This document shows positions 26,135 to 27,919 of a DNA stretch of 43,840 nt, in pieces; the stretch's first letter is position 1; every line of letters starts with the position of its first letter. The position numbers were made by a program, and so were the translations under genes. The stretch is from assembly GCA_001819335.1 (NCBI GenBank), contig MHMH01000022.1, positions 1 through 43,840 on the forward strand, in the 5' to 3' direction. The notes beneath the pieces are model-generated. The model saw only the letters and a list, made by a program, of their open reading frames with translations, searched no databases and was not told the origin of the DNA. This DNA is from Candidatus Nealsonbacteria bacterium RIFCSPLOWO2_01_FULL_43_32. GTDB lineage: Bacteria > Patescibacteriota > Minisyncoccia > Minisyncoccales > MHMH01.

Positions 26135-26208
26135 GGGCCTATGGTCCAGCGGCAAGACGCCACATTCGCATTGTGGAAACGGCAGTTCGAATCTGCCTAG
26201 GTCCACCA
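26135..26208 (+). tRNA. tRNA-Ala (CGC)
   Basis: Acceptor GGGCCTA/TAGGTCC with G3:U70; anticodon arm CCACA-TTCGCAT-TGTGG; encoded CCA. Confidence 0.85.
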
Positions 26209-26236: not shown

Positions 26237-26358
26237 AAAAAACCTCCAGCCAATTGGGAGCCTTTTGGCATAAAGCCGTTATCCCGCCTTTGGCGGGCCC
26301 TCAATAAGGAGGGAATGAGGCGAGACTCCCAAATGGTTGAAGGCATTCAGCGCTTAAT
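26237..26358 (-). ncRNA. Candidate structured small RNA (unassigned family)
   Basis: Minus-strand TTGACA (26393-26388) - 17 bp - TATCAT (26370-26365). Closing stem CCTTCAACCATTTGGGAG / CTCCCAATTGGCTGGAGG, 16 of 18 paired, then T6. Internal hairpins CCCTC/GAGGG and CCCGCC/GGCGGG. Confidence 0.6.
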
Positions 26359-26404
26359 GAATCTATGATACGTCCGTCACGATATTTTGTCAATAAATAT
26401 ATGA

Positions 26405-26432
26405 CTTGACAAAGAATTCTGGCCTGCTAAAC
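26405..26432 (+). promoter_or_regulatory. Promoter upstream of nusA leader
   Basis: TTGACA - 16 bp - TAAACT with TGC extension; shares TTGACAA-N7-CTGGCCTGCTAA with the T-box promoter. Confidence 0.6.
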
Positions 26433-26502
26433 TGAAATTAGTTTGGCCCGCCTACGTCCCGCTTTGCGGGACTACGGCGAGGCGAAGGAAAGCAAAGAAA
26501 CC

Positions 26503-26531
26503 TTGTCCGTTTGACCGCGGACAATTTTTTT
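26503..26531 (+). terminator. Terminator-like hairpin in nusA leader
   Basis: TTGTCCG..CGGACAA then TTTTTTT. Confidence 0.6.
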
Positions 26532-26611: not shown

Positions 26612-27919
26612 ATGGACATAAAAAATTTTACCTCGGCCTTAAGCCAGATTGCCGAGGAAAAAGGCATTCCGGCCGAAAAAGTCATTGAAACCATTGAAAT
26701 GGCTATTGCGGCTGCTTATAAAAAAGATTACGGCAAAAAAGGCCAAATCATTAAAGCCAAGTTTGATACAAAAACCGGCGATGTTAAGTTTTGGCAGGTG
26801 AAGCAGGTTTTAACGGAAGACATGATTTATTCAGACGCCGAGCTTTTAGAAATGAAAGCGCAGGCGGACGAAGATGAAGCAAAGCTTCATCGCCCAGAAG
26901 AAGAATTGGGAGACAAGGAGGGGAAAATCCGTTTCAACCCGGAAAAACACATCATGCTGGCCGAGGCTAAAAAAATCAACCCCAAGATTAAAGTCGGCGA
27001 AGACTTGGAAGCGTCTTTGGAGGCACAGGGCGATTACGGCCGGATTGCGGCTCAAACAGCGAAGCAAGTTGTCCTGCAGAGAATCAGGGAAGCGGAAAGA
27101 GAGGTTGTTTTTTCGGAATTCAAATCAAAAGAGGGCGAGATTATTTCCGGCATTGTCCAGAGAATTGAGGGCCGAACCGTTTTTTTTGACATCGGCAAAA
27201 CCTTAGGCATACTCTCGCAGGAAGAACAGGTGCCCAGGGAGTTTTATCGTACTGGTCAGCGGCTGAAAGTCTATATTATTAAGGTGGAAGAAACCTCAAG
27301 AGGCCCGGTGGTTTTTCTCTCACGGGCTTATCCCAAGATTATTTCTAAACTTTTTGAGCTGGAAGTGCCTGAAGTTTCGTCAGGCGCCGTCGCGATCAAA
27401 TCGGTCGCTCGGGAACCGGGTTCCCGTTCCAAAATAGCCGTGGCTTCAAACGTTGAAGGCGTTGACCCGATTGGCAGCATGGTCGGCCAAAGAGGCACGC
27501 GGGTGACCGCGGTCATCAATGAACTGGGCGGAGAAAAGATTGACATTATTGAATGGTCGGAAGACCCGGAAGCATATATTGCCCATGCCATGTCTCCGGC
27601 TAAAGTGGTTGAGGTTAAGGTGATGCCCAAGAATAAAGCTTTGGTTTTGGTGCCCGAAGACCAGCTTTCCTTGGCTATCGGTAAAGACGGCCAGAACGTC
27701 AGATTAGCGGCGAAATTAACCGGCTGGAAAATAGACGTGCGGTCCTTTGAAAGGGCCGAGGAGGAGAGGCAAGCAGCAGAAAAAGCAAAGGAAGAAAAAC
27801 CTAAAAAAGAAGTGAAGAAAGAGGTTAAGAAGAAAAAGTCGGCTAAAAAATCCGAAGCACGAAATCCGAAATCCGAAACAAACCCTAATGACCAAAGTTC
27901 AAAATCTAAAACAGTTTAG
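26612..27919 (+). CDS. nusA: Transcription termination/antitermination factor NusA
   Basis: S1 and KH domains (VDPIGSMVGQRGTRVTAVINELGGEKIDIIEWSEDP; LAIGKDGQNVRLAAKLTGWKIDV). Start MDIKNFTSAL at 26612. Confidence 0.96.
   Translation: MDIKNFTSALSQIAEEKGIPAEKVIETIEMAIAAAYKKDYGKKGQIIKAKFDTKTGDVKFWQVKQVLTEDMIYSDAELLEMKAQADEDEAKLHRPEEELGDKEGKIRFNPEKHIMLAEAKKINPKIKVGEDLEASLEAQGDYGRIAAQTAKQVVLQRIREAEREVVFSEFKSKEGEIISGIVQRIEGRTVFFDIGKTLGILSQEEQVPREFYRTGQRLKVYIIKVEETSRGPVVFLSRAYPKIISKLFELEVPEVSSGAVAIKSVAREPGSRSKIAVASNVEGVDPIGSMVGQRGTRVTAVINELGGEKIDIIEWSEDPEAYIAHAMSPAKVVEVKVMPKNKALVLVPEDQLSLAIGKDGQNVRLAAKLTGWKIDVRSFERAEEERQAAEKAKEEKPKKEVKKEVKKKKSAKKSEARNPKSETNPNDQSSKSKTV

Follow-up and report, generated by a model that had tools for sequence, protein, structure and literature searches.

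The hexamer CCUCCU is the core of the anti-Shine-Dalgarno (aSD) sequence and is complementary to AAGGAGG. CcsR1-4 are the Rhodobacter example of the alpha-r14 or 'cuckoo' small RNAs (sRNAs) of Alphaproteobacteria, and 6S RNA is recognized by a different architecture, a large bubble plus an apical stem. NfeR1 has hairpins with variable stems whose unpaired parts hold an ultraconserved CCUCCUCCC aSD motif; the RNA silences ntrB by occluding its ribosome-binding site (PMC10746234). Similarly, loop A of LhrC5 pairs with the SD sequence of fri (PMC13350326). A search of a paper library found no description of a conserved sRNA family in Patescibacteria, or of an RNA of the kind reported here. Members of this phylum have very small genomes and are often host-associated, and little seems to be known about their riboregulation.

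The window analyzed here, a 43,840-nt stretch of a 553-kb, 88% complete patescibacterial genome, contains an sRNA gene on the minus strand between tRNA-Ala(CGC) (26135-26208, plus strand) and nusA. The original prediction had proposed a TTGACA-17-TATCAT promoter on this strand, and such a sigma-70-type site is indeed present, running from 26393 to 26365 with a score of 11/12. The RNA is predicted from this promoter to begin near 26358 and to end at a run of T residues, so that it would span 26237..26358, or about 120 nt; the closing stem together with this T6 (26242..26237) resembles an intrinsic terminator. The divergent arrangement with nusA also holds, the latter being encoded on the plus strand with a promoter-like site at 26406-26433, an ATG at 26612, and a Pfam NusA_N match. 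A genome-wide search indicated that the sRNA is single copy. As had been claimed, no plausible open reading frame covering it was found at the locus; the one small frame, 17 codons on the plus strand with an SD-like AAGGAGGG ahead of its ATG, was rejected because the ATG is lost in the homologue from the relative G005. A riboswitch or leader was also rejected, with no same-strand gene downstream in the window or at most loci.

The nusA 5' untranslated region of the window has a structure of its own. Between the nusA promoter and the start codon (26503-26530, plus strand), a hairpin GUCCGUU..AACGGAC is followed by a U-run, and a hairpin at this position was observed at approximately 25 of the order's 32 nusA loci (L003-L033), 15 of them with exact GTCCG..CGGAC arms and about 10 with related ones. 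Rfam gave no match to it, either in the window or at the loci scanned, and it has the look of a conserved attenuator in the nusA leader.

The minimum free energy of the sRNA was -55.7 kcal/mol (137 nt), compared to -37.1 +/- 3.65 kcal/mol for dinucleotide shuffles (z = -5.1), and none of 200 shuffles was as stable. The closing stem, P1, comprises 21 positions, 19 of them paired, with its 5' arm CCTTCAACCATTTGGGAGTCT at 26323..26343 and its 3' arm AGGCTCCCAATTGGCTGGAGG at 26243..26263; the 18-bp stem with 16 pairs originally described is exact (CCTTCAACCATTTGGGAG / CTCCCAATTGGCTGGAGG) and is lengthened here by three further pairs, and the internal hairpins and T6 described with it are both present. 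All of the enclosed parts are likewise on the minus strand. The P2 hairpin, CCUCA-UUCCCUCCUUAU-UGAGG (26299..26320), presents the loop motif CCCUCCUU (26306..26313), which is complementary to the SD sequence AAGGAGG(G). P2 is supported by covariation in relatives and lies about 1 kcal/mol from the minimum free energy structure, in which part of the loop is instead paired (CCCUC/GAGGG). P3, CCCGCC-AAA-GGCGGG (26283..26297), was identified by folding and in an 11-sequence alignment, and is followed by a linker, AUAAC (26278..26282), that alignments show to be conserved as GGAUAAY in the main architecture. The P4 hairpin, GGC-UUUAU-GCC (26267..26277; loop consensus YUURU), is 100% paired in the 11 sequences. 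A pseudoknot between AUAA and the P4 loop was also considered, and full pairing was seen in some members only.

With covariance models, relatives were identified at differing loci in six Paceibacteria families. Model R1, for which the window and G005 were the sole source sequences, was searched against 247 genomes of the order and matched G045 and G036, from two other families, at E values of about 1e-14. Model R2 recovered members in families f74, f93, and f54, and model R3 detected the RNA in 6/7 genomes of f74 and 6/9 of f93; these later models also added G253, while a weak R2 match in G445 (E 0.0016) was absent with R3 and was left out of the member count. Few candidates per genome were scored in the searches of >40 genomes, and the true range is therefore probably wider; the R3 search over a sample of the phylum was a first look that scored only 9 candidates per genome, which limits the meaning of absence in other classes. 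Four viral contigs matched a second sequence pattern, whose D at one position excludes the C of the window's own type, and none of them matched R3.

Of eight relatives in the window's own family, the RNA was detected in just three, as a diverged copy in G006 and a remnant in G001 besides the copy in G005. BLASTN against 100 relatives returned only G005 and the 37-bp G001 remnant, in which a deletion has left just the 3' arm and T-run. An exact two-block pattern, searched in 196 genomes of the order, genome contigs, and viral contigs, identified G005 (JAQUTZ010000035.1, Candidatus Paceibacterota); its other matches, scattered in other taxa, were taken for chance. The placement of the source genome in Paceibacteria is based on this G005 record. 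The core in G005 is near-identical to that of the window and has a perfect promoter (TTGACA-17-TATAAT), nusA synteny is retained, and the end of the contig cuts the RNA. This synteny is restricted to the window's own family and relatives occupy other loci, so the adjacency to nusA is local only. In G006, compensatory changes have kept the closing stem whole. The same G006 region (L008:900-1262, minus strand) has an RNA-like stem without a T-run followed by about 250 nt that are apparently non-coding, ending in a terminator-like GGACCAG..CTGGTCC hairpin that is not conserved in other members of the window's family; the idea of a longer RNA was dropped, the matches in G007 and G008 being shared promoter sequence only. 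G045 has a second copy, diverged and read as a tandem paralogue, that lies upstream of the first by about 150 nt (L108:1213-1352, plus strand), with a TTGACA-16-TATAAT promoter and the same P1 neck, GGGAAUCUUGCC..AAGAUUCCC.

The alignment of 11 sequences displayed changes on both sides of 24/32 pairs, compared to 5-12 for slid structures and 16 +/- 2 for shuffles, and a covariation score of 0.59, compared to 0.07-0.19 and 0.22, respectively. Both-side changes were found at all 19 pairs of P1. RNAalifold on the same alignment predicted 34 pairs, 26 of them with both-side changes. The proportion of paired cells, 96.3%, is inflated because the alignment was fitted to the model, and the first extension, to four sequences, agrees (10 both-side pairs versus 0-2 for slid structures). 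With homologues, many compensatory changes, and conserved promoters in hand, the original proposal of an unannotated structured sRNA is strongly supported.

One hairpin per RNA has CCUCCU in its apical loop in each of the 15 loop-bearing members examined (families f1, f29, f74, and f93; consensus UCCCUCCUU), and no two of these 15 are alike in the five stem letters beside the loop. In five f93 members, the order of the head is permuted (short hairpin, loop hairpin, P4) and the loop is the same; in those of the five that could be inspected, the model alignment placed the loop letters elsewhere, so the loop was not what the search selected. CCUCCU is absent from G045 and G253, where the fold is kept, and from the G006 relative, which has a different interior, so the loop is dispensable in some members. 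The family, its fold, and the conservation of its loop all follow from comparison of the genomes, and this aSD loop, overlooked by the original prediction, is the best indicator of function.

The loci of the relatives are varied. Most copies in f93 have as neighbors an RNase J-like gene (a name given by eye) and the gene of a conserved membrane protein, the G036 copy lies downstream of ispG, and the G045 copy continues directly into tRNA-Glu. In f74, clpP and gpmI converge on the RNA, which shares the strand of clpP in four genomes and that of gpmI in two. At this f74 site (L111-L116), the orientation of the RNA thus differs between genomes; as the P1 arms are inverted repeats, recombination may have inverted the element at its site. 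Most members have a promoter of the TTGACA-TATAAT type within about 35 nt upstream, scoring 10-12/12 in the window, G005, G036, G358, G376, G495, G474, G447 (12/12), G481, G305, and G253. Copies on the clpP strand have no promoter of this strength, and may be 3'-UTR products.

Because the hairpin loop copies the sequence with which the ribosome binds mRNA, the RNA probably silences genes by covering ribosome-binding sites. From the sequence, we infer transcription, pairing, and targets as follows. The RNA would be transcribed constitutively or under some control, P1 would both protect it and terminate its transcription, and P2 would keep the loop UCCCUCCUU open to pair with the SD sequence AAGGAGG(GA) of selected mRNAs, blocking 30S binding; for P4 and the AUAAY linker, the probable role is to bind a protein or to stabilize the fold. 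With gene starts that are crude, AAGGAGG was found before 17 of 509 starts and before none in shuffled letters. A strong SD thus precedes a small minority of genes in this genome, and the RNA would act on that subset. Using the same crude starts, loop pairing of <= -12 kcal/mol was predicted for 22 start regions, compared to 10 CDS controls and an average of 5 for shuffled loops, and at <= -14 kcal/mol the comparison was 5 versus 5, a modest enrichment of targets. Extended pairing was predicted for the start regions C13:15335-, C18:6369-, and C19:9448+, and for 8563+ and 7050+ in the window. By analogy with described aSD-bearing sRNAs, we consider it probable, as one joint proposition, that the window's RNA is the founding example of a Paceibacteria RNA family not described before and that it acts in trans to block translation of the few mRNAs with a strong SD. 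The patchy distribution among the eight relatives from the window's family counts against this explanation, as do the modest target enrichment, the members that lack CCUCCU, and the partial pairing of the loop in the window's minimum free energy structure, which is about 1 kcal/mol better than the open-loop form. A more specific version, put forward tentatively, is that of a dedicated aSD family discriminating between SD-led and SD-less mRNAs, in genomes with a strong SD at just a few per cent of genes, and switching that small regulon as one unit, which to our knowledge would make it the first sRNA family described in Patescibacteria.

Several other explanations bear on the same observations. 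The RNA might be a sponge or scaffold that does not pair with mRNA, its C-rich loop and P4/AUAAY element binding a protein or ribosome component. A protein site could equally take the form of a conserved unpaired loop carried by variable stems, P4 and the linker match the loop in conservation within the main architecture, and all three members that lack the loop motif keep P1 and the fold, G045 and G253 also retaining P3-AUAAY/AUGAU-P4. However, the conserved letters are exactly those of the aSD sequence, a known sRNA seed in unrelated lineages (PMC10746234, PMC13350326), and there is no candidate protein, leaving this reading unlikely although deserving of some weight. It is improbable that the element is mainly a terminator or 3'-UTR structure with an elaborate head, serving converging genes in both directions and lacking function in trans. 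P1 and the T-run would stop transcription, and the f74 copies, flanked by A- and T-runs, occur on either strand (4 versus 2 genomes) between convergent genes, but an invariant CCUCCU loop, P4, and a dedicated promoter would be superfluous for a terminator. Strong promoters lie just upstream in the window, G005, G036, G358, G376, and most f93 copies, and in several f93 copies a second terminator stands apart downstream. Finally, the general expectation of some inverted repeats between genes is all that speaks for a chance structure, and given the z of -5.1 and independent homologues with extensive covariation, we regard that probability as negligible.

No known family accounts for the RNA either. 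Consistent with the initial failure to recognize one, Rfam 15 (4227 families) gave nothing above the gathering threshold at the window locus or at twelve homologue loci, and a relaxed threshold added only tRNAs and sub-threshold chance matches. The suggested 6S likeness fared less well. On that reading, the RNA would mimic a promoter to bind RNA polymerase. The RNA is similar to 6S RNA (RF00013 and relatives) in its size, rod-like drawing, and stand-alone gene, and scanning the whole 553-kb genome at gathering thresholds recovered RNase P, tmRNA, 5S, LSU, and tRNAs, but neither 6S nor SRP RNA, so that no recognized 6S RNA lies elsewhere in it. Nevertheless, no 6S model matched even at a relaxed E-value. 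In place of the promoter-mimic bubble with its apical stem there is a three-hairpin junction head with the conserved letters in hairpin loops, and the RNA is found in few genomes of the order; 6S identity is therefore very unlikely. SRP RNA was rejected as an identity, with no RF00169 match at the locus and a patchy distribution. As a separate observation, RF00169 was found in none of 60 genomes of the order, the source genome included (controls positive in 11/14), and the Ffh/FtsY P-loop motif was not found in the source genome; this lineage may have lost the SRP pathway or have one that is unrecognizable.

The closest parallels are therefore in working mode. With alpha-r14, NfeR1, and the cuckoo RNAs, the window's RNA shares a small RNA gene and an aSD motif (CCUCCUCCC there, UCCCUCCUU here) in unpaired apical loops on freely varying stems, CCUCCU occurring in 15/15 loop-bearing members on 15 different stems. 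In contrast, NfeR1 has three hairpins, each with CCUCCUCCC, whereas here a single aSD hairpin per RNA sits inside a long closing stem with P3 and P4, and the alpha-r14 RNAs belong to a different phylum and have no sequence or model match to it. The LhrC family of Listeria shares a CU-rich loop, which there pairs with the target SD, but is built as stem-loop A, a single-stranded stretch, and a terminator, and is unrelated in sequence. A covarying RNA with an invariant aSD loop and its own promoter offers a testable entry point to riboregulation in Patescibacteria, and suggests that aSD loops arose in an unrelated phylum by the same design rule, a fixed loop on a free stem. We liken the window's RNA to NfeR1 and LhrC in its putative mode of action, and claim no relatedness.
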